This document shows positions 6,696 to 26,668 of a DNA stretch of 64,000 nt, in pieces; positions within the stretch are counted from its first letter, which is position 1, and each line of letters starts with the position of its first letter. Source of the stretch: Natrinema sp. DC36. Its GTDB lineage: Archaea; Halobacteriota; Halobacteria; Halobacteriales; Natrialbaceae. Location: assembly GCF_020405225.1 (NCBI RefSeq), contig NZ_CP084472.1:2232001-2296000 (forward strand), in the 5' to 3' direction. The translations under genes were made by a program, and so were the position numbers. The notes below the pieces were generated by a model. The model ran no database searches, was not told the origin of the DNA, and worked only from the letters and a program-made list of their open reading frames with translations.

Positions 6696-7081
6696 ATCGC
6701 CGGTTCCGTTTCCACCCACCGACCGGGTGCGTCGATCCATCGGCTTCCGTTTCGGTCGGCGACGCTCCCGGCTCGGATCGCTATCGGCCTCGAACCTATT
6801 CGTAACCGAGATAATTAGTACGAAATGACAGTCTTCCCCCGTGATGGAATATATAGTATCTGATTGCTTCGCCGTAAATCGACGACGATCAGTGATCGAT
6901 CGCACTGATCGACAACTTACGTTCAGGACTGCATAGTTCGGTATAGAAGCAGTTTTTGTAGGATATCGGTCGCCAGACTCGATCATCATCTCCGTGATAA
7001 ATGCACTGAACTAACTCACGTCGTGTAGCTGATCTTCGCCTTTATTCCTCACTGCTCCGACTATTATTACGGGATGTCACA
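6696..7081. other. Intergenic region without a gene
   Basis: I see no plausible coding sequence in these 386 bases, which include AT-rich stretches unlike the genes on either side. The main structure is the long dyad at 6886-6911. A TTTATT box near 7040 is the closest promoter-like sequence to the cyclase gene that follows. Confidence 0.6.
6886..6911. repeat. 26-base inverted repeat
   Basis: CGATCAGTG (6886-6894) and its exact complement CACTGATCG (6903-6911) are separated by ATCGATCG. The inner spacer is almost self-complementary, so the whole 26 bases are near-palindromic. It could be an operator for the cyclase gene or a cruciform/terminator structure after the glpK transcript. There is no T-run next to it, which argues against a simple terminator. 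Confidence 0.7.
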
Positions 7082-8308
7082 ATGACCGGACACGATCGCG
7101 ATCAGGATTCGGATGTGGGCGTCGATCGACGAAACTTCGTGCAGGGTTGCGGAGCGGCCGCGGCGATGGCCGTCGCCGGACTGAGCGTCGACTCCGTCGC
7201 GGCGACGGCGGCGGATCTCGACGCGCTCCTCGAGGACTTGCCGAACAACTGGGGGCGGTGGGGCGAGGACGACGAACTCGGCGCGCTCAATCTGCTGGGT
7301 AGCGAGGAGGCGTTCGCCGGGATGGAAGCGGCGATGCAACGCGGTCCCACGGGGATCGAACGGTTCACTCTCCAGATGCCGATGACCGGCGAGGCGATCG
7401 ACGCCCTCGTGGGGGAGGGCGACGCGCCGACGACGGACACCGGCGATCCGATGTTCCCGGGCCGGACGCCGGCCCGTCGCGACAACGCTGCGGACGCGCG
7501 GACCGCCGAACCGTATCCGGGCGGCATGCAGTTCTCCGACGACCGGTTCGTCACGGAGTTCTTCCTCCACGGGACGACCCACATGGACGCTCTCGGTCAC
7601 GGCTGGTACGGCGACGAGGTGTACAACGGCCGCGACGAGTCGGTCACGGCGGCCCCGAAGGAGTTCGACCACGCGGTCCCCGGCTGCGTGGACGGGGAAG
7701 CCGGCGAGGTGAAAGAGACCCACGGCCACTCGGCCGTTGACATCTCCCCGCTAGCCGACGCCGGCGTCGCGGGTCGCGGCGTGTTGCTTGATGTCGGCCG
7801 CGCGCGCGGCGACGACTGCGACCGGCTCCCGCTCGGCGCGGAAGTGACCCTTGAGGACATGAAGGAGACGGCGAAGGCACAGGGAATTGAACTCCGGGAG
7901 CGAGATATCATCCTGCTCCGGACCGGATCGATCGAACGCGTCGCCGACCCCGATGCGGAGTGGGATCCGATGAACGAGCCCGGACTGGTCTTCAGCGAGG
8001 ACCTGATCCGCTGGGTCCACGACATGGGGGTCCCGATGATCGGCGCGGACAACGTCGCCGTCGAGAAGGTGACCCAGACCGTCGGCGACCACACGTTCGT
8101 CCTGCCGCTGCACGGCGCGCTCCTGCGGGATCTGGGCGTGTCGCTCAACGAGATCCTGTGGCTCGATGACCTCGCCGCGCAGTGTGCCGACGACGGGATC
8201 TACGACTTCCTCCTGACCTCGGCACCGCTGCACGTCGAGCGGGCGACGGGCGGGCCGGTCAACCCCATCGTGCTCAAGGCGACGAAACCGAAAGAGAAGC
8301 GATCCTGA
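7082..8308 (+). CDS. Cyclase-family (kynurenine formamidase-like) hydrolase with Tat-type signal
   Basis: This is a member of the metal-dependent cyclase/formamidase superfamily, whose members hydrolyse amides or related bonds. The 408-residue protein has the family metal motif HGTTHMDALGH (about residues 160-170) and a later GADNVAVE segment with a conserved HGALLRDLG. The N-terminus reads DRRNFVQG, followed by an Ala-rich hydrophobic stretch and an ATAADL cleavage-like site. This is typical of twin-arginine export, the main secretion route in haloarchaea. The substrate is unknown, and neither neighbour suggests one. An RR pair so close to the start of a short hydrophobic core makes export probable, not certain. 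Confidence 0.88.
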   Translation: MTGHDRDQDSDVGVDRRNFVQGCGAAAAMAVAGLSVDSVAATAADLDALLEDLPNNWGRWGEDDELGALNLLGSEEAFAGMEAAMQRGPTGIERFTLQMPMTGEAIDALVGEGDAPTTDTGDPMFPGRTPARRDNAADARTAEPYPGGMQFSDDRFVTEFFLHGTTHMDALGHGWYGDEVYNGRDESVTAAPKEFDHAVPGCVDGEAGEVKETHGHSAVDISPLADAGVAGRGVLLDVGRARGDDCDRLPLGAEVTLEDMKETAKAQGIELRERDIILLRTGSIERVADPDAEWDPMNEPGLVFSEDLIRWVHDMGVPMIGADNVAVEKVTQTVGDHTFVLPLHGALLRDLGVSLNEILWLDDLAAQCADDGIYDFLLTSAPLHVERATGGPVNPIVLKATKPKEKRS

Positions 8309-8402
8309 CCGCTGGATCGACGTTCCGTCACCGTCTCGAAGTCGACGGCAGTACCGGGCCACTGACCCGACCGTTTTAGGGGGCGGATCGCTCATCACCG
8401 AT

Positions 8403-9086
8403 ATGACCGCCGATCCGCCGCTCGCCCTCGATATCGACGGCACCCTGACCCGCCCCCAAGGCTGGGGGATCGATCCCCGCGTCTTCGATCCGCTCCGCGA
8501 GTGGGACGCGCCCGTCGTGATCGCGACCGGGAAGGCCTTCCCCTATCCCGTCGCACTCTGTCACTTCGTCGGCATCCCCGAACTCGTCGTCGCCGAAAAC
8601 GGCGGCGTCGTCTACACCGGCGACGACGTTTTCTTCACCGCCGATCGCGAGGCCGCTCGAGCCGTCACCGAGGAGTACCGGGCCGCCGGCTACGAGCTCG
8701 GCTGGGGCGCGGAGGATACCGTCAACCGCTGGCGGGAAACCGAGATTGCCGTCAACTTGGAGCAGCCGATCGACCCCTTGCGCGAGATCGCCGCGAAACA
8801 CGGTCTCGAGGTGATCGACACCGGCTACGCCTACCACGTCAAGGACGCCGATCCGAACAAGGGCGAGGGACTCGAGCGGGTCGCCGCACACGTCGGGATC
8901 GACCTCGCAGACTGCGTCGCCGTCGGCGACTCGATCAACGACGTCTCGACGTTCGAGGCCGTCGGCCGGAGCTTCGCCGTCGCGAACGCCGACGAGATGG
9001 CGAAAGCGGCCGCCGCCGAGGTACTCGACGAGGAGCACGCGGACGGGACGCTCGCGGTGCTCGAGCGCGTCCGAGATAGGAAATAA
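8403..9086 (+). CDS. Phosphoglycolate phosphatase (archaeal HAD type)
   Basis: This is a HAD-superfamily phosphatase of the archaeal phosphoglycolate phosphatase / sucrose-phosphate-phosphatase-like subgroup. It removes phosphate from 2-phosphoglycolate or related small sugar phosphates in the cytoplasm. Motif I is LDIDGTLT (residues 9-16). Motif II is IATGKAF. The final motif is GDSINDVSTFE, with the acidic pair that binds magnesium. A short cap domain lies between them. At 227 residues it has the usual length. The ATG follows an AT-containing stretch, and the gene ends about 30 bases before the convergent hypothetical gene. Confidence 0.9.
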   Translation: MTADPPLALDIDGTLTRPQGWGIDPRVFDPLREWDAPVVIATGKAFPYPVALCHFVGIPELVVAENGGVVYTGDDVFFTADREAARAVTEEYRAAGYELGWGAEDTVNRWRETEIAVNLEQPIDPLREIAAKHGLEVIDTGYAYHVKDADPNKGEGLERVAAHVGIDLADCVAVGDSINDVSTFEAVGRSFAVANADEMAKAAAAEVLDEEHADGTLAVLERVRDRK

Positions 9087-9119
9087 ATCGGCTCGTTCCG
9101 CCGCGACCTCCGTTCCGCG

Positions 9120-10187
9120 CTACTCGCCGTCCTCGAGCACGTCGTCGATCCACTGCTCCGGGACGACTCGTATCTGACTGTCGGCCTGTAGCGAGTCGGC
9201 GGTGACGAACACGATTTCGTCGCCGGAGGCGACGGCCATCCCGCCGCCCGCGACGGAATCCCAGTGGTTCAACACGGTGTCGGGAATCGTCAGGGTTCGC
9301 TCGCCGTCGATCTCGGTGCTCGCGACGTAGCGGATTCCGCCACCGTCCTGAATCGGGTCGAATTCCTGTGAGACGAAGACGGCGTCGTCGTCCTCGCGAA
9401 TCCCCCAGAACGCTTCGGATCTGAGCGACAGAATGTGTTGATCGAACGCGCGCTGGGGGACCGGTATTTCACTGCTGTGTTCGTCGAACGAAGCCGCACC
9501 CAGTCGCTCGTACGATTCGGTTGATTCGGTTTCGGCGCTGTCGGGACTGTCGGATACGCTCCCGGTACTGTCGGGACTTTCCGATTCGCTCTCAGTAGTA
9601 GTGGACTCGCTCTCGAGACCGTCGGACTCGCTGTCAGGCTCAGTGGACTCGTTCGCCACGTCCGCGAGTCGCTCCTCGTCGGTGCCGGTCTCGACGACGT
9701 CCGACTGATCGATCCCGGTCGCGTCGATATCGTTCTCGAGGTCGGGACTCGAGTCCACGTCCTCGATGTCGATGCTGGTCCCGGCGACGCGCTGGGCCTC
9801 GTCACCGGTGTGCCGGCCGCCGCCGGCGTCTCGGTCCTCGAGGTCGTCGATCTCGGGTCCGGTGCTGACGACGTCCGTCTGATCGATGTCGGCTCGAGTC
9901 TCGTCGCGCCTCCCGTCCGCCCGCCGCTGGGCGATCGCGACCGCGAGGAGTACGCCGCCCAGAGCGAGCTGGCCGACGCCGTGCTCGCGATTCCCCCGTC
10001 GGAGCGCTCTGATGCCGCGGAGGAGACTCACTCCGCCGCCGATACCCGCCGGGAGGCCCGATTCGATACCCCCTCGGGCGGACTGGAGCGCCCTCGAGAC
10101 GCCCTCGCGGCTGAGTTTCGATTCGCTGTGCTCGGATTCGGTCGCGGGACTGTCGCCGGTTTCGGTGGTGGGATCTCGCTTGCTCAT
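9120..10187 (-). CDS. Hypothetical acidic protein with one hydrophobic segment and internal repeats
   Basis: I do not recognise this family. The start chosen is the ATG at 10187 (MSKRDPTTETG); longer in-frame starts lack acidic composition. The 355-residue protein has a hydrophobic stretch near residues 90-103 (GQLALGGVLLAVAIAQ). A low-complexity Ser/Glu/Asp linker spans about residues 180-245. A C-terminal region of about 105 residues (from IPVPQRAFDQ) looks folded. A short motif IDQ(T/S)DVV(S/E)TG occurs twice in the linker, about 60 residues apart. The protein may be membrane-anchored with the C-terminal domain on one face. The next gene upstream on the same strand is built similarly. Confidence 0.72.
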   Translation of the reverse strand: MSKRDPTTETGDSPATESEHSESKLSREGVSRALQSARGGIESGLPAGIGGGVSLLRGIRALRRGNREHGVGQLALGGVLLAVAIAQRRADGRRDETRADIDQTDVVSTGPEIDDLEDRDAGGGRHTGDEAQRVAGTSIDIEDVDSSPDLENDIDATGIDQSDVVETGTDEERLADVANESTEPDSESDGLESESTTTESESESPDSTGSVSDSPDSAETESTESYERLGAASFDEHSSEIPVPQRAFDQHILSLRSEAFWGIREDDDAVFVSQEFDPIQDGGGIRYVASTEIDGERTLTIPDTVLNHWDSVAGGGMAVASGDEIVFVTADSLQADSQIRVVPEQWIDDVLEDGE

Positions 10188-10327
10188 GTTCGAGTTAGCT
10201 GTTTCGATCCGTCGCAGGCGGTCTATCGAGTAGTGAGAACGCGGTGACGGCATGGAACGCATCTGGCCAGTGGTGGCTGGCTGCTGGTGGGTGACACCCG
10301 TCTCGTGAGGGCGAGCCAGTTCCCGAT

Positions 10328-10690
10328 TCAGCTCTCGGCGCTCGAGTCACCGTCTCCCGTGCTATCGGCGAACTCGTCGGTCTCCTCTTCGGCCGACGAC
10401 TGGACGTCGTCCATATCGACGGCGGAGCTGACTTCCTCCTCGTTGATCGCCCGCTCGAGGGTCCCCGTGTCGGTCACCGCACCCAGCCCCTTCTCCTCGA
10501 CCGCGGACTGGATCTCCCCGGCGTCGATCGCCGAATCGACGTTCCCGCCGTTCGTCGCCGATTTCAGCGCTCGTCGGACGATCAGGTAGCCCGCGAGCGC
10601 CGCGCCGCCGGTCGCGATCGCGCCCGGAACCCCGTAACGTTTGTAGCCGAATTTGACCGCTTTCTTGCCGATCGTGTAGGCGCCAATCAT
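10328..10690 (-). CDS. Small membrane-anchored hypothetical protein
   Basis: The start is set at the ATG at 10690 (MIGAYTIGKKAVKFGYKRYG), giving 120 residues. A basic N-terminus is followed by a hydrophobic stretch (GAIATGGAALAGYLIVRRAL, about residues 22-41). An acidic, Ser-rich tail follows, with loosely repeated units AIDAGEIQSAVEE, AINEEEVSSAVD and VDMDDVQSSAEE. The positive-inside pattern suggests that the tail faces outward or is a docking region. It lies directly upstream of, and in the same direction as, the repeat-containing hypothetical protein at 9120-10187. The two may work together. The function is unknown. Confidence 0.72.
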   Translation of the reverse strand: MIGAYTIGKKAVKFGYKRYGVPGAIATGGAALAGYLIVRRALKSATNGGNVDSAIDAGEIQSAVEEKGLGAVTDTGTLERAINEEEVSSAVDMDDVQSSAEEETDEFADSTGDGDSSAES

Positions 10691-10937
10691 GGATACGGAT
10701 TGCACTGGAACGGGCAAGAGGGCGAGGCTTTCGTACGGAAGTCGCGATCGTCGTCAGGAACGATCGGTGAGGCGATGGTGAACCGCAGAGTCCGACCCGA
10801 GTACATCTATATAGACTTCGGCTTCACTGGCTGCACGTCGTTCTATTCGGCCCGTTTTCCCCGGGTAGAATCGCGATACCACCGGTCTAGATCGGGTACT
10901 ACAGAGCCGCTCGCTGTTCTCTATAGATTTGGCTATA

Positions 10938-10943
10938 TTTATA
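10938..10943 (+). promoter_or_regulatory. TATA box of the PhoU/AbrB regulator gene
   Basis: TTTATA lies inside a longer AT-rich stretch, about 25 bases before the ATG at 10968. That spacing predicts a leaderless transcript, the commonest arrangement in haloarchaea. It also supports the choice of METRKV as the true N-terminus. Confidence 0.7.
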
Positions 10944-10967
10944 TTCGAGCGGGCTACATCCGGCCAC

Positions 10968-11963
10968 ATGGAGACGCGAAAGGTCCAGGTGACGGGCGGG
11001 TCGACGTACACCGTCTCGCTGCCGAAAACGTGGGCAACCGACAACGACGTCAGCGCCGGCACGACCGTCGAGTTCTACCCCGAAGACAGCGCGCTGTTGC
11101 TGACGCCCCAGAGCGAAACGGAGCGCCAGGAGGGCACCCTCGATATCTCGAGCATCGAGGGCGAACGCCTGACCCGCGCTGTCATGACGATGTACGTCAG
11201 CGGTTTCGACATCATCAGACTCGAGGCGGGGCGCATTACGACCGACCAGCGCCGGGCGATCCGCAGCGCGACCCAGGGGCTGGTCGGCGTCGAAGTCCTC
11301 GAGGAGACCACCGACAGCGTGGTCATCCAGGACCTCCTCGATTCCTCGGAGCTATCGATCGTCAACGCCGTCACGCGGATGCGCCTGATCGCCCAATCGA
11401 TGCTCGAGGACGCAGTGACCGCGCTGATCGAGAACGACGACGACATCGCTCGCGACGTGATCGAGCGCGACGACGACGTCGACCGGCTCTGGCTCGTCGT
11501 CTCGCGGATCTTCCGCGCCACCCTGCGGTCGCCCCGCGCCGCCGAGGAACTCGGCGTCCCGCGCGAGGACTGTTTCGACTTCCACTCGAGCGCCCGCCAG
11601 CTCGAGCGCGTCGCCGACCACGCCGCCAAGATCAGCAACATCGCGCTCAAGCTCGAGGAGATCCCCGAGCCGGTCGCCGAGGCGCTCGAGGAGCTGCATA
11701 CGGACGCCTCAACCGTCCTCGAGAAGGCGATGGACGCCCTGTTCGCCGAGGAAACGGAGGACGCGAACCGGCTCGGCCACGACGCCCGGGAGGCCGTCCT
11801 CGAGATCGACGAGCACACCCGCCAGATCGACGATATGCTCCGGGATCTCGACTCGGTACAGGCCCAGTCGCTGGGGTTGATCGTCGACTCGCTGTCCAGG
11901 AGCGCCGACTACGGCGGCAACATCGCCGAGACGGCGCTACAGAAGGCGGCACCGCGGCCCTGA
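10968..11963 (+). CDS. PhoU-domain regulator with N-terminal AbrB/SpoVT DNA-binding domain
   Basis: This is a phosphate-response type regulator of 331 residues. The N-terminus METRKVQVTGGSTYTVSLPKTWA is the swapped-hairpin AbrB DNA-binding fold. Two PhoU-like helical repeats follow, at about residues 110-200 and 215-310. They contain the acidic motifs ERDDDVDRLW and EIDEHTRQID, which bind metal in PhoU proteins. Haloarchaeal proteins of this build often sit beside pstSCAB transporters, but no transporter is visible here, so this copy may act at a distance or sense something else. The start is supported by the TATA box 25 bases upstream. Confidence 0.92.
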   Translation: METRKVQVTGGSTYTVSLPKTWATDNDVSAGTTVEFYPEDSALLLTPQSETERQEGTLDISSIEGERLTRAVMTMYVSGFDIIRLEAGRITTDQRRAIRSATQGLVGVEVLEETTDSVVIQDLLDSSELSIVNAVTRMRLIAQSMLEDAVTALIENDDDIARDVIERDDDVDRLWLVVSRIFRATLRSPRAAEELGVPREDCFDFHSSARQLERVADHAAKISNIALKLEEIPEPVAEALEELHTDASTVLEKAMDALFAEETEDANRLGHDAREAVLEIDEHTRQIDDMLRDLDSVQAQSLGLIVDSLSRSADYGGNIAETALQKAAPRP

Positions 11964-12110
11964 CACGTTCGATCCGCACCAGTCAGCGTCCCCGTCGGCC
12001 CGATCCGCAGTAGCGTCGCGGACGGGCGGGAAAGCTACTACTATCTCCTCCTGAAATCGAATACTGATGGCTTCCCGAGCGGCTCCGCCGACGGTCGCGG
12101 AGGGGGTACC

Positions 12111-13508
12111 GTGACGAACCGCCCGCTGTCGGCGCTCGCTCGAGTCCGACCAGCGCTCACGCGCACCCGGATTCGGGCCGGCTTCGGCATCGTCGTTCTG
12201 CTCTCGACCGCCGTCGTCGCCGCTGCGGCGTCGGGCGGCCTCTCGACGGCGTCGAAAGAGGCTGTCCCGGAGGCACCGCCGACCGAGAACCACACGGTCG
12301 TGACCGAATCGGGTCGCGCCGGGACGATCACCGCCTACGCGCCCAGCGGCGAGATCCGCTACTACAACAACTCGCGAACGAAGTACTTCGACGTCGATCC
12401 GGTCGAGGGCGATCCGCTGACCGTCGAATACACTGCGACCGATACGATCCACACGGAAGGGGCCAACTGCGGCGATCCGCCGTGCGCCAGGAACGTCATC
12501 GAGCGTGCCGACCTCGAGACCGGCGCGGTCGAGGTCGTCTACGAACGCTACGATCACAAGGAGACCGCCGCCGAGTGGCACGACGTGGACCGTATCGACG
12601 AGCGCCACGTTCTCGTCGCCGACATCGTCGCGGATCAGGTCTTCATCGTCGACACGGAGACCGAGATCGTCGAGTGGCTCTGGGACGCCCAGAGCGAGTT
12701 CCCGCTGGAGAGCGGCCACTCGTTCCCGAACGACTGGACGCACATCAACGACGTCGAATACATCGAGGACGGCCGGATGGAAGGCCGGATCATGGTCAGT
12801 GTTCGAAACCAGAATCGGGTCGTCTTCCTCGACCGGGAAGAGGGCCTGCTCGAGGGGTGGACCCTCGGCGGCGAGAACGACGCCGACGTTCTGAACGAAC
12901 AGCACAACCCCGACTTCATCCCCGAGAGTCGAGGCGGACCGGCCGTCCTCGTCGCCGACTCCGAGAACGGTCAGATCAAGGAGTTCCAGCGCGAGGATGG
13001 CGAGTGGAACCGAAGCTGGCTGTGGGAAGACGATCGGATCCAATGGCCCCGCGACGCGGACCGACTTCCGAACGGGAACACCTTGATCACCGACACCCAC
13101 GGCAACCGCGTTGTGGCCGTCAACGAATCGGGCGACATCGTCTGGGAGGTCGAGTCGACACTCCCCTACGAAGCCGAGCGCCTCGAGACCGGTGCCGAAA
13201 GCGAGAGTGGCCGGAGCGCCCGGGAACTCGGCCTCGAGTCCCGAACGGTAACCGAAGACGACGGCGGAACCGGCGGCTTCGGGATCGACCCGTTCGCGTT
13301 CCTCGGCGGCATCGTCGAGTCGATCCTCCCCCATCGGATCTATAACGCGTTGATCTTCGTCGCGCCGGTCTGGATCGGCAAAACTGCAGCCGCCGCTATC
13401 GCCGTCGGACTCCTGACGGGGCTGACCTGGGCGGGTCTCGAGATCAGATGGACACTCCGCGATGCCGGTATCTGGTTCCGCCTCCCCGTCTCCCGCGAAC
13501 GGGAGTAG
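12111..13508 (+). CDS. Arylsulfotransferase-like (ASST family) membrane-anchored protein
   Basis: This 465-residue protein begins with a basic stretch and a membrane segment (about residues 22-42). A beta-propeller-like domain follows, with repeated blades such as HDVDRIDERHVLVADIVADQVFIVD and RDADRLPNGNTLITDTHGNRVVAVN. A second membrane segment near residues 420-445 precedes a short basic tail. The W-x-H-x-N sequence WTHINDVEYIEDG is typical of the arylsulfotransferase/ASST-like propellers. The bacterial enzymes transfer sulfate between phenols. Whether this protein is catalytic is unclear, and it could be a non-enzymatic propeller. The start is a GTG. Confidence 0.85.
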   Translation: MTNRPLSALARVRPALTRTRIRAGFGIVVLLSTAVVAAAASGGLSTASKEAVPEAPPTENHTVVTESGRAGTITAYAPSGEIRYYNNSRTKYFDVDPVEGDPLTVEYTATDTIHTEGANCGDPPCARNVIERADLETGAVEVVYERYDHKETAAEWHDVDRIDERHVLVADIVADQVFIVDTETEIVEWLWDAQSEFPLESGHSFPNDWTHINDVEYIEDGRMEGRIMVSVRNQNRVVFLDREEGLLEGWTLGGENDADVLNEQHNPDFIPESRGGPAVLVADSENGQIKEFQREDGEWNRSWLWEDDRIQWPRDADRLPNGNTLITDTHGNRVVAVNESGDIVWEVESTLPYEAERLETGAESESGRSARELGLESRTVTEDDGGTGGFGIDPFAFLGGIVESILPHRIYNALIFVAPVWIGKTAAAAIAVGLLTGLTWAGLEIRWTLRDAGIWFRLPVSRERE

Positions 13509-13579
13509 CGCGGTCGGTGGCCTCCGCTGCTCCGTGGGTGGGACCATCTCCGTCTCGTCGGTGAGGGAGAGCGAACCGG

Positions 13580-13918
13580 TCAGACGTCCTTCTGTCCGAC
13601 CTCCAGCGATCGAGTGCGGTTCGAGGGGGAGAGCCGCGTCCGTACGGCGCGTCCGCCGACGGCGACCAGCGAGGCGAGAATCAGGAACGAGCAGAAGTAC
13701 CACGGCTTGGATTGTATCACTGTGAGTCCCCTCGTGGAGGCGGGGACGATGCCGAGCGCCAGCAGATAGAACGCGGTGAGAAGAGCGAGCGACGACTGGC
13801 GGTAGCCGTGCCAGTAGATGACTCCGATGAGAACGCCAGACAGGAGACCGAGTTGGCCCGAATGAAGTTCGGGAACGGTACTGAAAATCGACGATAGGAC
13901 GGTCTCGACGGTAGCCAT
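13580..13918 (-). CDS. Small integral membrane protein
   Basis: The ATG at 13918 gives a 112-residue protein, MATVETVLSSIF onwards, with three hydrophobic segments (about residues 22-37, 43-60 and 73-90). A basic, Arg-rich C-terminal tail follows. The composition is clearly membrane-like and continuous across the frame, which supports it being real. It is divergent from the RPA operon and convergent with the ASST-like gene. I do not recognise a family or a function. Confidence 0.72.
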   Translation of the reverse strand: MATVETVLSSIFSTVPELHSGQLGLLSGVLIGVIYWHGYRQSSLALLTAFYLLALGIVPASTRGLTVIQSKPWYFCSFLILASLVAVGGRAVRTRLSPSNRTRSLEVGQKDV

Positions 13919-14099
13919 TCGTATTGCTCTCCGACGGGACCGTTCTATGCTGTGGCCTGCAAATCGACAGCTACTATGACGAGTCAACCGCGACACTATG
14001 GGTGCTGATCGTTGCCGAGACACCGACGACGAATATCGGCGACTTCGTCGACGTCGTCGGTCGGTCGACCTGTTCACTTTCGCCCTCCTCCGGGAACGC

Positions 14100-14107
14100 T
14101 TTTTACG
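14100..14107 (+). promoter_or_regulatory. TATA box of the RPA operon
   Basis: TTTTTACG is centred about 26 bases before the rpa ATG at 14129. This spacing fits a leaderless transcript and supports the start MELDDHAEDL over longer in-frame starts. Confidence 0.65.
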
Positions 14108-14128
14108 CCCCAACTCGAAAGGCAAGTG

Positions 14129-15403
14129 ATGGAACTCGACGATCATGCCGAGGATCTCGCCTCCGACCTCGGTGTTGACAAAGAGGAGGTCAAAGACGAC
14201 CTGCAGAATCTGGTGGAGTACAGCGTCCCGATCGACGAGGCGAAACAGAGCCTCCGGCGGAAGTACGGCGGCGGGTCCAGCGGCGGTGGCGGCGCGCCGT
14301 CGGCGAAGGATATCGCCGAAATCACGACCGACGACGGCAACGTCACCGTCACGGGCGTCGTCCTGACTGCGGGCGAACGATCGATCCGCTATCAGGGCTC
14401 CGATCACGTCATCGTCGAAGGCCGACTGGCCGACGAGACCGGCGTCATCGACTACACCGCGTGGGAGGACTTCGGCCTCTCGCCGGGCGACACGATCACC
14501 GCGGGCAACGCGGGCGTCCGCGAGTGGGACGGCGAACCCGAACTCAACCTCGGCGAGAGCACCTCACTGTCCTTCATCGAGGAGTCCCTCGAGGTACCCT
14601 ACGAGAGCGGCGGCGACGCGCAACTGGCCGAGCTCCGGACCGGTGACCGCGCGGTCACCATCGAGGTCAGCGTCCTCGAGTGCGAGCGAAAGACGATCGA
14701 CGGCCGCGACGGCGAGACGGACATCCTGAGCGGCGTCTTCGGCGACGAGAGCGGGCGGCTCCCCTTCACGAACTGGGATCCGGCCCCCGAAATCGAAGAC
14801 GGCGGCACGGTCCGCATCGAAAACGCCTACGTACAGGAGTTCCGTGGGGTACCCGAGGTCAACGTCTCGGAATTCTCGCGAGTCTCCGCACTCGACCGCG
14901 AGATCGATGTCGGAACCAACACGTCGACGATGGACGTCGGCGACGCCGTCGCTACCGGCGGCATCTACGACGTCGAAGTCATTGGGAACCTGCTCGCGGT
15001 CCGCGACGGCTCCGGACTCATTCAGCGCTGTCCGGAGTGTTACCGGGTTATCCAGAAGGGGCAGTGCCGAACCCACGGCGACGTCGACGGGATCGACGAC
15101 CTGCGCGTCAAGGCGATCCTCGACGACGGCACCGGGACCGTCACCGTCGTCCTCGACGACGAACTCACCGAACGGGTCTACGACGGCACCCTGGACGACG
15201 CCCTCGAGCAGGCCCGCGAGGCGATGGACCAGGAGGTCGTCGCGGATCGGATCCGCGAGCGCATCGTCGGCCGCGAGTACCGCGTCCGGGGGCACCTCTC
15301 GGTCGACGAGTACGGCGCGAATCTCGACGCCGAGCTATTCGAAGCGAGCGACGACGATCCGGCCGCCCGTGCGACTGCCTTCCTCGAGGAGGTGGACGCA
15401 TGA
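14129..15403 (+). CDS. rpa1: Single-stranded DNA-binding protein, replication factor A (RPA) large-subunit type
   Basis: This protein binds and protects single-stranded DNA during replication and repair. It has 424 residues. A short N-terminal helical region is followed by three OB-fold segments, roughly at residues 60-160, 170-265 and 280-424. A zinc finger C301-x2-C304-x8-C313-x2-H316 lies in the last one, as in archaeal RPA41-type proteins. The stop codon overlaps the start of the next gene (ATGA), so the RPA-associated protein is translationally coupled. In Haloferax volcanii, RPA genes sit in operons with such partners (Stroud, Liddell and Allers, recalled). The symbol is by analogy to that operon. 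Confidence 0.93.
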   Translation: MELDDHAEDLASDLGVDKEEVKDDLQNLVEYSVPIDEAKQSLRRKYGGGSSGGGGAPSAKDIAEITTDDGNVTVTGVVLTAGERSIRYQGSDHVIVEGRLADETGVIDYTAWEDFGLSPGDTITAGNAGVREWDGEPELNLGESTSLSFIEESLEVPYESGGDAQLAELRTGDRAVTIEVSVLECERKTIDGRDGETDILSGVFGDESGRLPFTNWDPAPEIEDGGTVRIENAYVQEFRGVPEVNVSEFSRVSALDREIDVGTNTSTMDVGDAVATGGIYDVEVIGNLLAVRDGSGLIQRCPECYRVIQKGQCRTHGDVDGIDDLRVKAILDDGTGTVTVVLDDELTERVYDGTLDDALEQAREAMDQEVVADRIRERIVGREYRVRGHLSVDEYGANLDAELFEASDDDPAARATAFLEEVDA

Positions 15404-17208
15404 GCGCGAACGGCGACGGTGACGACGAGATTCCGGGGCGAGAACTCGCCTACCGGCTCTTCGCTGCCGAGTACGACGACGCCTCGTTCTCCTACGCGGA
15501 GAGCGACGAGGAACGCGCGCCGAACTACGTGATCACGCCGACCGGCGCGCGACTCAACCGCGTCTTCGCCGTCGGAACGCTGACCGAAGTCACGTCGGTC
15601 AACGACGAGATGGTTCGGGCCCGCGTCGTCGACCCGACCGGCGCGTTCGTCGTCTACGCCGGCCAGTACCAGCCCGACGAACTGGCCTTCCTCGAGCAGG
15701 CCGAGCCCCCTGCGTTCGTCGCGGTGACGGGAAAGGCCCGGACCTTCCAGCCCGACGATTCGGATCAGGTCTACACCTCGATCCGGCCGGAGAGCATCGC
15801 GACGGTCGACGCCGACACCCGGGACCGCTGGGTCGTCAGCGCGGCCGAGCAGACCCTCGATCGCATCGGTACCTACGCCGGCGCTGCCGACCTCGAAGGA
15901 AGCGCGGAGCCACGCTCCGCGGACAGTCGAGCGGCGAAGCCGCGAGACGCGGATAGCGACACACTGACCAACGCCCTCCTCGAGGCCGGCGTCGAATCCG
16001 GCCTCGCGACGGGGATTCCCCTCGCACAGGAGCACTACGGAACGACGCCGTCGTACCTCGCGGCGCTGCGAGCGTGTGCGCTCGAGGCGGTCGAAGTCGT
16101 CGCGGGCGAGCGCGATCAGGTGAGCGGACTCGCTATCGCACCCGACGCGACGAGCCCCGAATTCGACGCGTCCTTCGCATCGCTCGCCGACCTCGACGGC
16201 GTCGATACCGACGCGATCGAGGCCAGTCTCGAGTCCGAAGCCGAAACCAAACCCGAATCCGAACCCGAGTCGACGGAGGCGGTCGCGGCGACGACCGACG
16301 GGAGCGGCACGGCTGCGGTCGACCCCGAGGACACGCATTCCGGCTCCGCGGCCGGAACGGCGACGAGTGACGATCCCGCGACTACCGACATCGATGCGGA
16401 ACTCGAGGCCGAGACAGCCGAAGCCGAACCCGTCTCCGAGTCGGACGACACCGATGAATTCGACGGTACCGACGACTCTCCCGAGGCCGAGCCCGACAGT
16501 GACGGGACAGCGAGCGAGGTCGACGACGAGACTGCCGACGTCGCGGCGTCGGAATCCGACGACAGTGATGGCGAAACGGACGACAGCGATGACGAAACCG
16601 ACGACGAACTCGGCGACTTCGACGCCGGCGATGTCGACGACGGCATGTACGAAATGGACGAGTCGGAACGCGAACAGCTCGAGGAAGAGTTCGGCACGGA
16701 GTTCACCGCCGGCTCCGAGGTCGACGAGCCCGGAGAAGCGGAAATCGACGTTCCCGAGCCCGAAGACGCCGCGGCCGATGAGCCCGAGGCAGAATCGGAG
16801 TCGGGCGACGACGAACCCGACGACGGCGACGCGATCACCGGTGGGGAATCCGCCGAGTCCGACGACGATATCGGTGCACCACCGGAATCCGGACTCGAGG
16901 ACGCGGAATCGGACGAAGCCGCCGAGTCGGAGTCCGGAGCCGACGAGGAATCCGAAACCGACGACGCCGAACCCGACGACGAGCCGGTCTCGAACGACGA
17001 ACCGGCCGAGGACGTCGATCTCGAGGCCGCCGTCGTCGAGACGATGACCGAACTCGACGACGGCGACGGTGCCGATCGGACGGAGCTGATCGAGACGGTC
17101 GCCGCCGACACGGGGGCGCCCGCCGACGACGTGGAGGACGCCATCCAGGACGCGCTGATGGGCGGCCAGTGTTACGAGCCCGACGACGAGACGCTGAAGG
17201 CCATCTGA
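15400..17208 (+). CDS. rpap1: RPA-associated protein (COG3390 family) with long acidic linker
   Basis: This is the partner of RPA in haloarchaeal ssDNA-binding complexes. It has 602 residues. The N-terminal OB-fold-like domain spans about residues 10-150 (YVITPTGARLNRVFAVGTLTEV). A short Ala/Arg-rich insert follows at residues 168-187, then a helical region to about residue 270. An extremely Asp/Glu/Ser-rich linker runs over roughly residues 285-545. A C-terminal winged-helix-like segment ends it (about 550-602). The insert is encoded by palindromic DNA (see the repeat at 15903-15943). The start overlaps the rpa stop by four bases. The acidic linker resembles protein-interaction tails of SSBs, which is inference. 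Confidence 0.9.
   Translation: MSANGDGDDEIPGRELAYRLFAAEYDDASFSYAESDEERAPNYVITPTGARLNRVFAVGTLTEVTSVNDEMVRARVVDPTGAFVVYAGQYQPDELAFLEQAEPPAFVAVTGKARTFQPDDSDQVYTSIRPESIATVDADTRDRWVVSAAEQTLDRIGTYAGAADLEGSAEPRSADSRAAKPRDADSDTLTNALLEAGVESGLATGIPLAQEHYGTTPSYLAALRACALEAVEVVAGERDQVSGLAIAPDATSPEFDASFASLADLDGVDTDAIEASLESEAETKPESEPESTEAVAATTDGSGTAAVDPEDTHSGSAAGTATSDDPATTDIDAELEAETAEAEPVSESDDTDEFDGTDDSPEAEPDSDGTASEVDDETADVAASESDDSDGETDDSDDETDDELGDFDAGDVDDGMYEMDESEREQLEEEFGTEFTAGSEVDEPGEAEIDVPEPEDAAADEPEAESESGDDEPDDGDAITGGESAESDDDIGAPPESGLEDAESDEAAESESGADEESETDDAEPDDEPVSNDEPAEDVDLEAAVVETMTELDDGDGADRTELIETVAADTGAPADDVEDAIQDALMGGQCYEPDDETLKAI
15903..15943 (+). repeat. Pair of trinucleotide-loop hairpins inside the RPA-associated protein gene
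   Basis: CGCGGAGC (15903-15910) pairs exactly with GCTCCGCG (15914-15921) across the loop CAC. Ten bases on, GCGGC (15931-15935) pairs with GCCGC (15939-15943) across GAA. The block keeps the reading frame and encodes residues 168-187 (rich in Ala, Arg, Ser and Asp). It lies between a folded domain and a helical segment. The design matches hairpins in the intergenic repeat at 57.9-58.1 kb, which suggests an inserted repeat element rather than ordinary coding sequence. Confidence 0.65.
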
Positions 17209-17217
17209 GCGGCCGCG

Positions 17218-18051
17218 ATGCGAGACGATCCCAACCCGACCGGGACCCCGTCGCCGCTCGCTCGCGTCGAACCGGTTCCCGGCGAACCGGCCGCGACCGC
17301 GGCGATCGGGGGCGAGAGCGCGTTGCTCGTCGCCGACTATCACGCCGGCTACGAGGCCGGCTTGCGCTCCGAGCGCGGCGTCGACGTTCCCAGCCGCGCG
17401 CCCGACCGCCGAGAGCGACTGCTGGCGTTGCTCGAGCGCACTGATCCCGATCGGCTGGTCGTCCTCGGCGACCTCATGCACTCGATCGGCGATCCGGGCG
17501 GGGCCGAACGCGGCGAACTCGAGGTGCTGTTCGAGTCTTTTTCGAGTGATCTCACAGTGACCGTCGTCAAGGGCAACCACGACGGCAGAATCGAAACCTG
17601 GCTCGCGGACAGCGACGACATCGGGGCGACGATTACCGTCGTCCCCGGCGATGGCGTCGCGCTCGGCGATATCGGCGTCTGTCACGGGCACACCTGGCCC
17701 TCTCGAGCGGTCCTCGAGAGCGAGGTGGTCTGTTTGGGTCACGAACACCCCTGCGTTCGACTCGAGGACGAGGTCGGCGGGAGCCGCGTCGAGCGTACGT
17801 GGCTGCGCGGCCGGCTCGATCCCGGCCCGTTTCGCGACCGTCCGGCGTACGAGGGGGTTACGTGGCTCGAGGATGCGGACGAAACCCCGCCGCGCGCGGT
17901 CGTCGTACCGGCGTTCAACGACCTCGTCGGCGGGACGTGGATCAACGTCGCCGGACAGTCGTTCCTCTCGCCGTTTCTTCCGGCGGGGCTGGCTGCGGGA
18001 GAGGCGTACCTGCTGGACGGCACGCGACTCGGTCCATACGAGTCGGTGTAA
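17218..18051 (+). CDS. Calcineurin-like metallophosphoesterase of the RPA operon
   Basis: This is a binuclear-metal phosphoesterase of 277 residues. Conserved motifs in order are ADYHAG (D40, H42), LGDLMH, KGNHDG and HGHTW/GHEH, the complete set of metal ligands for this superfamily. It starts 9 bases after the RPA-associated protein gene, so it is the third gene of the RPA operon. A phosphoesterase accompanies RPA genes in other haloarchaea too, where its substrate is unproven. A nucleic-acid end-processing role is plausible from context. The family also contains DNA, protein and small-molecule phosphatases. Confidence 0.88.
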   Translation: MRDDPNPTGTPSPLARVEPVPGEPAATAAIGGESALLVADYHAGYEAGLRSERGVDVPSRAPDRRERLLALLERTDPDRLVVLGDLMHSIGDPGGAERGELEVLFESFSSDLTVTVVKGNHDGRIETWLADSDDIGATITVVPGDGVALGDIGVCHGHTWPSRAVLESEVVCLGHEHPCVRLEDEVGGSRVERTWLRGRLDPGPFRDRPAYEGVTWLEDADETPPRAVVVPAFNDLVGGTWINVAGQSFLSPFLPAGLAAGEAYLLDGTRLGPYESV

Positions 18052-21870: not shown

Positions 21871-22078
21871 CGGGCGTGGGTACAGGCCCCAGCTATAAAA
21901 TCACCTCCCGTACTCGATTCACACAATACAAGCGACCGGTGAATCTTCGCTGCGACACCGTCAATCGATCCGAGAAATGCGGTGTGTCCACGAGAGTCAG
22001 GCCAGTGGTACGAGACCCGACCGTCGACTCGCCGCGCCCGGCGTCACGGATTTCCGCGCTGATCACGTATCCGTCGCC

Positions 22079-22429
22079 ATGGCCGCGACCAGTAAACCGA
22101 GCCGACTCGAGACCGGCGACGAACTCGACGACTTCGTAGACGCCCACGACGTGGCGCTCGTGGAGTTCTACACCAGCGGCTGTGCGATGTGCCAAGCCAT
22201 GGAGCCCGTCCTGGGAAACGTCTCTCGGGCCACGGACGTCGCGATCGGGATGGTCAACCCCGGCGACGACATCGAACTCGTCGACCGGTTCGATATCCGG
22301 TCGGTGCCCACGCTGATCCTATTCGAGGACGGGGCGGAAACCGCGCGGCTGGCGGAGGGGTTCCAGGGTGGCGACGCCGTCACTGCGTTCCTGGCCGAAC
22401 ACGTTCCGAACGCCGTCGGTGCCGACTGA
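22079..22429 (+). CDS. Thioredoxin-family protein with CxMC active site
   Basis: This 116-residue protein has the thioredoxin fold: VALVEFYTSGCAMCQAMEPVL holds the active site C-A-M-C, followed by the usual cis-proline segment SVPTLILFEDG. The canonical CGPC is replaced, which in related proteins changes redox potential. The preceding residues are T-S-G instead of the usual A-x-W. It could act as a thiol-disulfide exchange protein for specific clients. It is distinct from the trxA at 63.8 kb, which has the canonical WCGPC site. The gene lies just before the exonuclease gene in the same direction. Confidence 0.9.
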   Translation: MAATSKPSRLETGDELDDFVDAHDVALVEFYTSGCAMCQAMEPVLGNVSRATDVAIGMVNPGDDIELVDRFDIRSVPTLILFEDGAETARLAEGFQGGDAVTAFLAEHVPNAVGAD

Positions 22430-22505: not shown

Positions 22506-24071
22506 ATGTCCGACGAGGACGGTGCCGACCTGCTGGCGCTGCGCTGTGACGCCGTCGCCGATCTGGACGACACGGCGCTGCGAGACGCGCTCGAGTACTT
22601 CGGCCCGGACCTCGTCTACGTCGTTCGCGAGTCGTCGGACGTCCGCGTCGTCAGCCGCCTCCGTCGCGCGTTCGACGGGCCGGTCGTCTCCGCCGGCGGC
22701 CCCGCCAACGTTCGGACGGAGACGGTCGCCGGTATCACGTTCGTCTTCGCGGGGTCGGCGTCGCTGCTCGAGGACCGCTCTGAAGACGACGAGACGCAGA
22801 CCGCGGAGTACGTCGTCTGCGACGATATCGAGCCGACGACGGACGCCGTCGTGCTGGAGGCGACCCTCGCCGGCCGCGAACCGCTCGCCCGCTACCAGTC
22901 GCGAGCGAGCGAGACGGCAACCGTGCTGACCGGCGCGCTCGAGGCGAGTTACGATCACGTCTGGGAGCCGACCGTCGACGGAGAAGGAGTCAGGATACCG
23001 GTTCGGGGGGTCGCCCCGTTGCGCCGCTCCGGCGCGGCCGAACTCGCCTGTCTCACCTGCGACCGACGCGGTTCGGTGGCCGTCTCGTCGGCCCCGGCCG
23101 ACCGATTCGGGCTGCGAGCGCTTGCCAACGTCGGGCCGACGACCGCACAGCGGCTCCGAACGAACGGCTACGAGACGCGCGCGGCCGTCGCCGAGGCCAC
23201 CGAGGCGGACCTCCGCGCGATCGACGGCGTCGGCGCGTCGACGGCTCGAGCGATTCGCCACAGCGCGCGTTCGCTCGCGGAGTCACGCGTCGTCCGCTGC
23301 ACTGACGAGCCGGTTCCGCCGGCGGCCGAGACCGCGACGCCGCTGTTCGTCGACATCGAAACCGACGGGCTACAGCCGACGATCATCTGGCTGATCGGGG
23401 TCTACGATCCCGAACGCGACGCCTACGTCGACTTCGTCGACACCGATCCGTCCCGCGACGAGCCGGGCGCGGCGACCCGTGAGTTTGTCTCGTGGCTGGC
23501 CGCCGAGTACGACGCGCCGTCGCTCGTCGCGTGGAACGGCCACGCGTTCGACTACAAACACCTCGAGCGCTTCATCGCCCGCGACGTGCCCGAGTTCCAC
23601 GACTACTGGCGGGAGAACGTCTTCACGTACGACCTCTACGACTGGGCGGTGCGACGCGAACACGCCGTGTTGCCGGGTCGAACGAACCGGCTCGAGGACG
23701 TGGCCGAGGCGCTGGGCTGTGACCGGTCGGGAGCCGCGGCGGCCCTCGACGGGAAGAGTCTCGCGGAGCGGATCCGGCGACTGCTCGAGAGCGAGCAGCC
23801 ATCGGGTACTGAATCCGACGACGGCGCGGCCGCGACTCGGGCCGCGACGGGACCGGCTATCGACTGGGCGGCCGCCCGGGAGTACTGCGAGGCGGACGTC
23901 AGGGAACTGGCCGCGGTTGCCGAGGCGATCGCGACGGCCCCGCTCGAGACCGGCAGAGCGTCGGCGGAGACCGACGGAGCGGAGATGGAGACGAACGGAG
24001 CGGAGAATGAGACGGAACGAGAACGATCGACCGACGACTCGACGACGCAGACCGGGCTCGCCGACTTTTGA
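22506..24071 (+). CDS. RNase H-fold exonuclease with helix-hairpin-helix motifs (MrfB/YprB-like)
   Basis: This is a predicted DEDD-type 3'-5' nuclease of 521 residues. The N-terminal part (1-170) is unassigned. A cysteine pair CLTC lies near residue 183. Two helix-hairpin-helix units cover about residues 200-265 (ALANVGPTTAQRL, IDGVGASTARAI). The nuclease domain follows, with FVDIETDGLQ (D283, E285), WNGHAFDYKHLERF and a final EYCEADVREL aspartate. In Bacillus subtilis, YprB (MrfB) is an exonuclease working with the helicase MrfA in mitomycin C repair. Here a MrfA-type helicase gene follows within 2 bases. HhH motifs would add DNA binding. Assignment by domain content and pairing. Confidence 0.88.
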   Translation: MSDEDGADLLALRCDAVADLDDTALRDALEYFGPDLVYVVRESSDVRVVSRLRRAFDGPVVSAGGPANVRTETVAGITFVFAGSASLLEDRSEDDETQTAEYVVCDDIEPTTDAVVLEATLAGREPLARYQSRASETATVLTGALEASYDHVWEPTVDGEGVRIPVRGVAPLRRSGAAELACLTCDRRGSVAVSSAPADRFGLRALANVGPTTAQRLRTNGYETRAAVAEATEADLRAIDGVGASTARAIRHSARSLAESRVVRCTDEPVPPAAETATPLFVDIETDGLQPTIIWLIGVYDPERDAYVDFVDTDPSRDEPGAATREFVSWLAAEYDAPSLVAWNGHAFDYKHLERFIARDVPEFHDYWRENVFTYDLYDWAVRREHAVLPGRTNRLEDVAEALGCDRSGAAAALDGKSLAERIRRLLESEQPSGTESDDGAAATRAATGPAIDWAAAREYCEADVRELAAVAEAIATAPLETGRASAETDGAEMETNGAENETERERSTDDSTTQTGLADF

Positions 24072-24073
24072 CT

Positions 24074-26668
24074 ATGCCAACTGACGACACCGGAAACCTG
24101 ACGGACGGGGAGGACAGCACCGGAGCGGACGGCCTCGCGCTGACCGGAACGGAGCTACGCGACACCTTTCCGTCGCGTCGCTACCACGGACAGCTTCACG
24201 AACGGTTCACGCTGCCGGCCGAACCGGCCAGTCACGTTCCGGCCCGCGAGGTGTTGCCCGCCGACCTCGCGGCGACGCTCGCGGTCGACCCCTGGAGCCA
24301 CCAGGCCGAAGCGCTCGAGGCGCTGTCCGACGGCGAGAACGTCTGCGTCGCGACCTCGACGTCTTCCGGGAAGACCTACGTCTACGGATTGCACGTCGCG
24401 CGACGCTTCCGGGAAAATTCGGACGTGCGCGCGTTACTCGTTTATCCGACGAAGGCGCTCAGCCGCGACCAGGAACGGGAACTCAACGATCTCTTCGATT
24501 CGCTCGGGCTGGACGTCACGGTCGGCGTCTACGACGGCGACACGAAACGCGAGGAGAAGGCCCGCATCCGCGAGGAGGCGAACGTCGTCATCACGAACTT
24601 CGCCGGACTGAACCAGTACCTCGAGGGGCACCACCGCTGGGCCGCGTTCCACGCGGAGTGCGAACTGATCGTGATCGACGAGGCACACTCGTGGACGGGA
24701 ATCAGCGGGATGCACGCCGCCTGGATCCTTCGGCGAGCCCGGCGGCTGATCGACTGGTACGGCGGCGACCCGCAGTACGTGCTGACGACCGCGACGATCG
24801 GCAACCCGGCCGAACACGCCCGCGCGCTGACCGGGGAGCCGGCGACGGTGATCGACGAGGACGGCTCGCCCAGCGGTCGCCGCCACCTCGCGTTCTGGGA
24901 TCCGCCGACGGACGGCGGTGGAAGCGAGTACGAAGGTGGGAACGATGGCGGTGACGGTGAGAAGGACGGCGACAGTAACGGGGAAAGCGACGGTAACGGT
25001 GACAGCGGTGATAGTGATAACGGGTGGTCGCCGAGCAAACGCCCCGCCACAGTCGAGGCTCCCGAAGTCTGGGCGCACTGCTGCTATCACGGCGTTCCGT
25101 CGCTGTTGTTCTGTGACTCCCGCAAACAGACCGAACTGGCTGTCGGACGCGCGGGGGAGTACCTCGAGAATCCCACCTTGCCCTATCGGGGCAGCGCCGA
25201 CCTCGCGGCGTACAACGCGGGTCACGGAAAGCGGTCCCGGCGACGTACCGAGAACCGGCTCAAAAACGGGGATCTCGACGGCGTCGCGACGACCAGCGCG
25301 CTCGAGGTCGGCATCGACGTCGGCGGGATCGACGGCACGATCCTCATGGGGTATCCCGGCTCCCGGCAGTCGTTCTGGCAGCGCCTCGGCCGTTCGGGGC
25401 GCGACGAGCGCGAGGCGCTCTCTGTGTTCGTCCCCAGTCACGCGACGCTCGACCAGTACATCCTGCGCCATCCGGAGTACCTCCTCGAGGAGGAGCCCGA
25501 GAGCGCGGTCGTCGACCTCGCGAACAACCCGGTCTACCTCCAGCACCTGCGCTGTGCCGCCCAGGAGTTCCCGCTACGCCGCGAGGACGCGGACCGCTTC
25601 GGCGGGATCGAGCGACTGGAACGAGCAGTCGAGTACGGCCGACGGACGGGGGATTTCGAGGGCTCGCTCGCGGGCGGGGTTACCTACGCCCACCGCGATC
25701 GGCCACAGAGTGAGATCAATCTGTACGCCTCCGGCGGGAACGCCTTCGAGGTCCGGCTGGCCGGCGAGGAGACCATCGGCCATCAGCCGATCGGCAAAGC
25801 GCGCGCGTATCGGGACTACCACGAGGGCGCGACGGTGCTGTATCGGGGCGACCAGTACGAGGTCGTCGAACTGCAGGAGGATCGCCCCCAGCCGTCCGTC
25901 ACGCTCGAGCCGGTCGACGTGGACTACTACACCCAGTCCCAGCGCCGGACGACGATCTACGACACCGAGGTCCGCGAGTCGCGCGACGTCGGGCCCTTCC
26001 GGCTCAACTGGGGGTACGGAACGGTCACAGTTCACCACGATACCTTCACAAAACGGGAGATCGGGACCGGCGACGTTCTCGCGACGGGGCTCGAGACCGG
26101 CGTCCCGCCCCTGGAGATGCGAACGCAACTGTGCTGGGCCGAAGTTCCCGACGACATCGAACGGGCGGTGACGGGCGCTCACAGCGAGTATCACAACGAC
26201 GAGTGCGAGGAGCTGCCGCCGCGACTCCACGGCTACCTCGGTGGGATCCACGCCATCGAGCACGCGATGATCGCCGTCGCGCCGCTCGAGTTGACCGTCG
26301 ACGCCGCGGATCTCGGCGGGCTCGCGACCAATCGTCTCCCCGACGGGACCGGCGCGAGCGGCTGGTTTATCTACGACGGCGTCGAGGGCGGGTTGGGCTT
26401 TTCCCGGCGCATCTACGAGGAGTACGAGGCGGTCGCCAGCCGGGCGCGCGACCTGATGACCGACTGCCCGTGCGGGCGCGACGAGGGCTGTCCCGCCTGT
26501 CTCATGGACGATCGCTGTGGCAACGACAACCGGCCGCTGTACGCGCCCGCGGCGACGGACGTGATCGACGCGCTGCTCGGCGATACTGACCCGGACGCCC
26601 TGTGCTCGAGACTGAAAACCGATCTCGACGAAGGGACAGAGCGTCGACCGCCCGCGTCGATCTCGTAG
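24074..26668 (+). CDS. DEAD/DEAH-box helicase with C-terminal zinc domain (MrfA/YprA-like)
   Basis: This is a superfamily 2 helicase of 864 residues. Walker A (TSTSSGKTYV) lies near residue 97 and DEAH (VIDEAHSW) near residue 200. Motif III-like TTATIGNP follows. A low-complexity Gly/Asp/Ser insert covers about residues 280-320. The second RecA domain has QRLGRSGRDE. The C-terminal DUF1998-like domain carries cysteines in CPCGRDEGCPACLMDDRCG (about residues 797-815). This order is that of B. subtilis MrfA (YprA), a DNA helicase for interstrand-crosslink repair. The gene follows the nuclease gene with a 2-base gap, so they are co-expressed and probably form a complex. Confidence 0.9.
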   Translation: MPTDDTGNLTDGEDSTGADGLALTGTELRDTFPSRRYHGQLHERFTLPAEPASHVPAREVLPADLAATLAVDPWSHQAEALEALSDGENVCVATSTSSGKTYVYGLHVARRFRENSDVRALLVYPTKALSRDQERELNDLFDSLGLDVTVGVYDGDTKREEKARIREEANVVITNFAGLNQYLEGHHRWAAFHAECELIVIDEAHSWTGISGMHAAWILRRARRLIDWYGGDPQYVLTTATIGNPAEHARALTGEPATVIDEDGSPSGRRHLAFWDPPTDGGGSEYEGGNDGGDGEKDGDSNGESDGNGDSGDSDNGWSPSKRPATVEAPEVWAHCCYHGVPSLLFCDSRKQTELAVGRAGEYLENPTLPYRGSADLAAYNAGHGKRSRRRTENRLKNGDLDGVATTSALEVGIDVGGIDGTILMGYPGSRQSFWQRLGRSGRDEREALSVFVPSHATLDQYILRHPEYLLEEEPESAVVDLANNPVYLQHLRCAAQEFPLRREDADRFGGIERLERAVEYGRRTGDFEGSLAGGVTYAHRDRPQSEINLYASGGNAFEVRLAGEETIGHQPIGKARAYRDYHEGATVLYRGDQYEVVELQEDRPQPSVTLEPVDVDYYTQSQRRTTIYDTEVRESRDVGPFRLNWGYGTVTVHHDTFTKREIGTGDVLATGLETGVPPLEMRTQLCWAEVPDDIERAVTGAHSEYHNDECEELPPRLHGYLGGIHAIEHAMIAVAPLELTVDAADLGGLATNRLPDGTGASGWFIYDGVEGGLGFSRRIYEEYEAVASRARDLMTDCPCGRDEGCPACLMDDRCGNDNRPLYAPAATDVIDALLGDTDPDALCSRLKTDLDEGTERRPPASIS

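Follow-up and report, generated by a model that had tools for sequence, protein, structure and literature searches.

A haloarchaeal gene pair of an MrfA-family helicase and a DEDDy-type exonuclease with a putative PCNA-binding tail

Introduction

In Bacillus subtilis, the helicase MrfA and the nuclease MrfB (YprA-YprB) serve in the repair of mitomycin damage. MrfB is a DEDDh enzyme (His258 in B. subtilis), and the cooperation between the two proteins is a model only and is still regarded as an open question (PMC11194089). The pairing of a YprA helicase with an MrfB homolog has already been published (PMC12458937). In the present study two adjacent genes of the haloarchaeon Natrinema sp. DC36 were analysed, which lie in a 64,000-nucleotide stretch (contig NZ_CP084472.1, positions 2,232,001 to 2,296,000; hereafter the window) of the main contig of its 5.1-Mb genome. 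They are located on the same (+) strand with 2 bases between them, and encode a DEDD-type nuclease and an MrfA-type helicase:

22506..24071, + strand: nuclease gene, 521 residues (ATG start at 22506, stop ends at 24071; open frame)
24074..26668, + strand: helicase gene, 864 residues, MrfA/YprA family (ATG at 24074)

The nuclease differs from MrfB in catalytic class and lineage, and ends in a motif resembling the PCNA-interacting protein (PIP) box. The reading favoured here, with a probability of about 0.55, is that the pair forms a module which is tethered to PCNA and unwinds and resects damaged DNA.

The gene pair and its distribution

The arrangement of the two genes had been described in an earlier note made from the sequence alone; its coordinates proved exact, and Pfam agrees with the assignment of both products. 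In the current public annotation they are listed as a 'ribonuclease H-like domain-containing protein' and a 'DEAD/DEAH box helicase'. The closest named relative found was Natrinema zhouii (89% nuclease identity). Genome-wide, there is only one helicase with the MrfA zinc-binding domain (MZB, formerly DUF1998).

Gene adjacency across Halobacteria, which the earlier note had proposed as a check, was retained, and the pair co-occurred throughout the surveyed loci. The nuclease lies immediately upstream of its own helicase on the same strand in 50 of the 50 fetched haloarchaeal loci, two of which have intergenic gaps of 610 and 1447 bases. The same order was found in all 80 named GTDB loci, where the gap had a median of 2 bases (30 or less in 73 of 80), and when plasmid searches were compared, the nuclease was also present on all 32 of the listed records whose helicase identity was 41% or higher. 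The two proteins have diverged together: their identities correlate with r 0.97, a value reached by none of 2000 permutations and to which shared species history contributes.

A survey of 292 haloarchaeal genomes (nuclease match at E 1e-5 or better) gave nuclease matches in 126, of which 15 were weak and partial, leaving about 111 genomes with a real copy. MZB helicases of any kind occur in 267 of the 292, and those haloarchaea that lack the nuclease carry another YprA helicase, of solo type, with an identity of about 29–35%. The pair is patchy within genera and often plasmid-borne; in Halobacterium salinarum R1, for example, it is found on plasmid PHS3, as OE_RS12870 for the nuclease and OE_RS12865 for the helicase. 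It is therefore an accessory module rather than the general haloarchaeal crosslink-repair route that the earlier note had envisaged.

Some copies of the pair showed local variation. On a Natronobeatus plasmid (L099, 6078-7684) the nuclease is broken into two frames while the helicase is intact. The helicase is followed on PHS3 (L252, 8536-9180) by a further DEDD-type exonuclease-like gene, and at locus L060 (1828-2835) by an OB-plus-exonuclease-like gene.

A PIP-box-like motif ends the nuclease

The conserved residues in the tail of the nuclease (Q515, L518, D520 and F521) belong to a motif that was missed in the earlier note:

24048..24068, + strand: PIP-box-like motif QTGLADF, the end motif in 80 of 80 named loci

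The pattern Q-x-x-[L/I]-x-[D/E/S]-[F/W] closes the nuclease at each of these loci, followed by no more than three residues. Among the other open reading frames (ORFs) of the loci it ends 5 of 1131, one of them a split nuclease. A search of the whole genome for DNA encoding QxxLxDF-stop gave three sites, against none for the reversed control. One is this nuclease, one is the helicase Hel308 (ending SQASLGDF), and the third belongs to a protein whose gene lies next to a ParA gene on a different contig. The window nuclease ends TQTGLADF, and FEN1 of the same genome ends TQTGLDRWT.

Archaeal PIP boxes are generally found at the extreme C-terminus (PMC3504372), and in those of haloarchaea the second aromatic position can be weaker (PMC2737543). 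The PIP box of Pyrococcus furiosus Hjm, a Hel308 homolog, is required for PCNA binding (PMC2636818), and H. volcanii NreA acts in mitomycin repair via its PIP motif (PMC4929162). Since the nuclease motif is conserved, rare, similar to the terminal PIP consensus Q-x-x-[LIM]-x-x-aromatic and nearly copied on FEN1 and Hel308, it is read as a putative PCNA hook.

Catalytic class and lineage of the exonuclease domain

The exonuclease domain of the nuclease contains the following elements:

23334..23939, + strand: DEDDy exonuclease domain (RNase_H_2), residues 277-478 (PF13482 at 280-474, E 3e-17)
23352..23360, + strand: catalytic D283 and E285, invariant
23550..23552, + strand: catalytic D349, invariant
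23883..23897, + strand: YxxxD motif spanning Y460 to D464, which puts the site in the DEDDy class (both end residues identical in 50/50)

Residues D283, E285, D349 and D464 are invariant in an alignment of 31 sequences, so the predicted active site looks intact. The acidic set whose loss the earlier note had named as grounds for doubt is thus present, and together with the PF13482 match it bears out the assignment as a DEDD-type nuclease. Four positions ahead of the last Asp, all 50 sequences compared have a Tyr (Tyr460), which places the enzyme in the DEDDy class; this third motif (YxxxD) had been overlooked. The best structural match of the domain was the proofreading domain of a family-B DNA polymerase (Z 15.5).

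The reading of this protein as MrfB-like was not upheld, because class and lineage both differ. A profile of the nuclease domain matched the MrfB core (8un9) with an E value of only 0.016. In a tree of exonuclease domains, the haloarchaeal paired nucleases and TM0106-like proteins were separated from MrfB, the methanogen paired nucleases and standalone haloarchaeal proteins with a support of 100/98, in an analysis that carried a long-branch warning from the program and represented bacterial MrfB by only two full rows and a partial one. The exact sister order of the haloarchaeal paired nuclease and TM0106 was weakly supported (93/36). As judged from these comparisons, the haloarchaeal nuclease is not of the MrfB lineage but groups with TM0106-type nucleases.

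Methanogens and other Halobacteriota (among loci L210-L241) often encode a nuclease of about 310-420 residues directly upstream of an MZB helicase. These nucleases have HNRQD-type motifs with the His, and the one tested matched MrfB at 4.7e-22 through the catalytic His. The simplest reading of the sequences is that haloarchaea pair the MrfA-type helicase with a nuclease of another RNase_H_2 lineage, in the gene order of the methanogens; extreme divergence within one nuclease lineage is conceivable as an alternative.

Two further proteins with related domains were noted. The only other PF13482 protein of the DC36 genome (L255, C1:858450) is a standalone helix-hairpin-helix (HhH)-RNase_H_2 protein of about 250 residues; the tree places it, at the end of a long branch, on the same side as MrfB, yet it carries Tyr instead of His. 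At locus L237 (4446-5702), one half of a 418-residue frame resembles a tyrosine recombinase and the other is an RNase_H_2 half of TM0106 type.

The N-terminal domain, HhH pair and linker

The AlphaFold2 model of the nuclease (pLDDT 86.5) placed further parts around the exonuclease domain:

22506..23111, + strand: residues 1-202, calcineurin-like metallophosphoesterase fold lacking the metal-ligand residues (AlphaFold2 of the domain alone, pLDDT 90.6)
23112..23285, + strand: residues 203-260, HhH pair (HHH_5 at 207-255 by Pfam; in 31 of 31 aligned members)
23940..24047, + strand: disordered, unconserved linker (low pLDDT from residue 484 on; first conserved column at 515)

Sequence searches of Pfam and the PDB with just the N-terminal domain found only weak, scattered matches, so that its fold assignment rests on prediction and structure comparison. 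All 50 listed structural matches were metallophosphoesterases, the best being Rv0805 (2hyo; Z 11.0, root-mean-square deviation 3.9, 178 of 202 residues). Independently, Foldseek gave high ranks to Mre11-Rad50 and to an archaeal phosphodiesterase, at E values of about 1e-3, which are weak taken alone; polymerase B-subunits ranked lower. The metal-binding residues have been lost: this domain of the window copy has one His, and 43 relatives have no conserved His column. As modelled, the domain, whose fold had gone unrecognised in the earlier note, is a degenerate metallophosphoesterase, which probably serves as a docking or scaffold part. A decayed RecB/PD-(D/E)XK domain, as in TM0106 proteins, was also considered; structure comparison gave metallophosphoesterases, and the absence of RecB from the 50 listed matches is no proof against a RecB-like domain.

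The two HhH units recognised in the earlier note correspond to the HHH_5 pair. The CLTC pair that it also pointed out is not conserved even among close relatives, and was rejected as a metal half-site.

The helicase

On the evidence of its SF2 (superfamily 2) motor, MZB domain, Cys cluster and near full-length match to MrfA, the helicase is a true member of the MrfA/YprA/SftH family. Pfam detected the DEAD, Helicase_C, WHD_HRQ1 and MZB domains, arranged as follows:

24296..24805, + strand: first motor half, DEAD domain (PF00270, E 3e-26)
24908..25039, + strand: Gly/Asp/Ser-rich linker between the motor halves (length and composition vary across relatives)
25100..25402, + strand: second motor half, Helicase_C (PF00271, E 3e-11)
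25511..25633, + strand: winged-helix domain of HRQ1 type (PF22982, E 4e-6, over the cut-off)
26255..26503, + strand: MZB, the MrfA zinc-binding domain (PF09369, E 1e-18)
26465..26518, + strand: Cys cluster C798, C800, C806, C809 and C815 (invariant in 29 aligned helicases)

The best solved relative was B. subtilis MrfA (6znp), matched at E 2.9e-106 over residues 71-279 and 322-811; the Cys cluster at the end was part of the alignment. Together with the MZB domain and the invariant Cys columns, this confirms the DEAH helicase with a DUF1998-like cysteine tail that had been proposed. The match to TIGR03817 had an E value of 9e-154, yet fell below the curated cut-off of that model. The Gly/Asp/Ser stretch that the earlier note reported does exist between the motor halves, but its length and composition are not kept, and it was rejected as a functional insert.

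In the helicase tree, the haloarchaeal paired helicases form one clade (support 100), separate from the solo haloarchaeal and the methanogen paired forms; the branching order among these three groups and the bacterial helicases received no resolution in the tree. The C-terminus of the helicase (window 26642-26665) has a tail of the RRPPASIS or RRPPLFYS type, which follows a variable stretch in 59 of 80 paired helicases and is not present in the rest.

Proposed function and alternatives

In the proposed mechanism, the MrfA/YprA-family helicase would translocate on DNA and unwind it, probably in the 3'-5' direction. The nuclease would act as a DEDDy 3'-5' exonuclease; its HhH pair would keep it on DNA, its C-terminal motif would tether it to the PCNA sliding clamp, and in contact with the helicase it would digest the exposed strand at its 3' end. 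Digestion of this kind could clear damaged or stalled DNA for resynthesis. A role in mitomycin damage is plausible by analogy, since such damage is repaired with the help of MrfAB in B. subtilis and of NreA, acting through its PIP motif, in H. volcanii.

Two observations weigh against a clamp-tethered resection module. The patchy, plasmid-rich distribution, along with the defence neighbours seen in some sub-clades, would also suit an accessory or defence role, and one divergent second copy (Salinibaculum, L261) is without the standard terminal motif. An antiviral or anti-plasmid function was weighed, in which the pair would break down foreign or replicating invader DNA, possibly with neighbouring defence genes. 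YprA helicases are central to the DISARM, Dpd and Druantia systems (PMC12458937), the pair is common on plasmids, and particular sub-clades of it adjoin a prokaryotic Argonaute, PglZ and BrxHII, an McrB-like AAA protein, or ThiF/JAB with a second YprA helicase. We nevertheless regard this function as unlikely, with perhaps one chance in a few, because no third gene was constant around the pair (at most 18 of 93 neighbourhoods), the window copy had no defence neighbour among the genes read, and the PCNA motif fits repair or replication better. Against the PADLOC component models, the nuclease gave no match and the helicase general helicase matches only; the nuclease likewise had no match in phage records.

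It is rather improbable that the locus is plain haloarchaeal MrfAB, with a diverged MrfB that excises mitomycin adducts as in B. subtilis and has no need of PCNA. Membership in the helicase family and the shared domain PF13482 would fit such an origin, and the methanogen relatives, with true MrfB in the same gene order, make single descent with strong divergence conceivable; but the DEDDy rather than DEDDh site, the poor match to the MrfB profile compared with that of the methanogen protein, the well-supported split in the tree and the ends of the listed methanogen proteins, which have no PIP-like motif, all argue the other way. Slightly less probable still is that the C-terminal motif contacts a partner other than PCNA, such as the helicase. 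The motif does go with paired nucleases, and most paired helicases likewise end in a conserved tail, but the motif fits the archaeal PIP consensus in sequence and position, and its near-copies end two other proteins of the same genome.

Beyond the PCNA-tethered module itself, a wider scenario of non-orthologous replacement is put forward tentatively, at somewhat short of even odds. The MrfB partner would have been swapped in haloarchaea for a DEDDy exonuclease with a dead metallophosphoesterase domain and a clamp hook, resection would take place on the clamp, and the pair would have spread via plasmids and also entered defence islands, where it adjoins Argonautes and genes for ubiquitin-like conjugation. 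If true, the MrfA-type motor would be partner-flexible, its exonuclease coming from one lineage in bacteria and methanogens and from another in haloarchaea. The haloarchaeal nuclease would then be plugged into PCNA, and would be a candidate addition to the few archaeal PCNA partners outside the core set, of which NreA is one.

Neighbouring genes

In the window, a thioredoxin-family gene (21977-22429, + strand) ends 76 bases ahead of the nuclease start, but does not recur as a neighbour of other copies of the pair. About 5 kb upstream (14680-18051, + strand) lie an OB-fold RPA-associated-like gene and then a calcineurin-like phosphoesterase gene, a set that we take to resemble the haloarchaeal rpa operon. 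A promoter scan gave nothing informative; its model is bacterial and the host archaeal.

At other loci, a prokaryotic Argonaute (Piwi; pAgo in PADLOC) is encoded directly upstream of the pair (L057, L059, L132, L135 and L142), or upstream on the opposite strand (L060). In L059, L132, L135 and L142 the Argonaute is preceded on the same strand by genes for a DUF2797 protein, a 239-residue protein with the PIP-like end FQGTLGGY, and an ATPase with a winged helix-turn-helix end, making this gene set a candidate multi-gene system. No such link between Argonaute and YprA was found in the openly licensed papers searched. On haloarchaeal plasmids, a second, solo-type YprA helicase may lie directly upstream of the nuclease, giving the order helicase-nuclease-helicase (L253 at 6714-16028, L049, L050, L051, L053, L109 and L115). 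In L253, L049 and L109, a ThiF/JAB (E1-like) gene and small genes of unknown function stand ahead of this second helicase, as in a ubiquitin-like conjugation operon. In Halosimplex carlsbadense (L111, 230-4714), PglZ and BrxHII genes are directly upstream of the pair.

Comparison with known systems

The pair resembles B. subtilis MrfAB in the family and domains of its helicase, and in having an RNase_H_2-type DEDD exonuclease encoded next door. Unlike MrfB, however, the haloarchaeal nuclease is DEDDy and of another RNase_H_2 lineage, and it adds the metallophosphoesterase-fold domain, the HhH pair and the PIP-like tail. The C-terminal TPR domain of MrfB was not detected in it: only about 40 residues, predicted to be disordered, follow the exonuclease domain. 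This form of the nuclease, with all four parts, was not found in the openly licensed papers searched. The methanogen MrfAB-like pairs (L210-L241) share an HhH-like region and an RNase_H_2 nuclease upstream of an MZB helicase, but their nucleases are DEDDh, match MrfB, leave no room for the additional N-terminal domain at their length, and have no PIP-like motif at the listed C-termini.

The nearest lineage in the tree, the TM0106 family of RecB-like nucleases (TIGR03491), has the same order of HhH and DEDDy RNase_H_2 domains; no description of these nucleases was found in the openly licensed papers searched. The haloarchaeal protein differs in its metallophosphoesterase-fold N-terminal domain and in its TIGR03491 score (33.9 versus a curated cut-off of 97.45), and the TM0106-like loci fetched had no such helicase next door.

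The archaeal proteins FEN1, Hjm/Hel308, NucS and NreA likewise have a C-terminal PIP motif, through which NreA acts in mitomycin repair, but they are unrelated proteins and none is an MrfA-partnered DEDD exonuclease. The YprA-based defence systems (DISARM, Dpd, Druantia, ARMADA and BRIGADE) also combine a YprA helicase with a nuclease, and some copies of the present pair lie near defence genes; in contrast to these systems, the pair has no constant defence gene set and its nuclease is of a different type.

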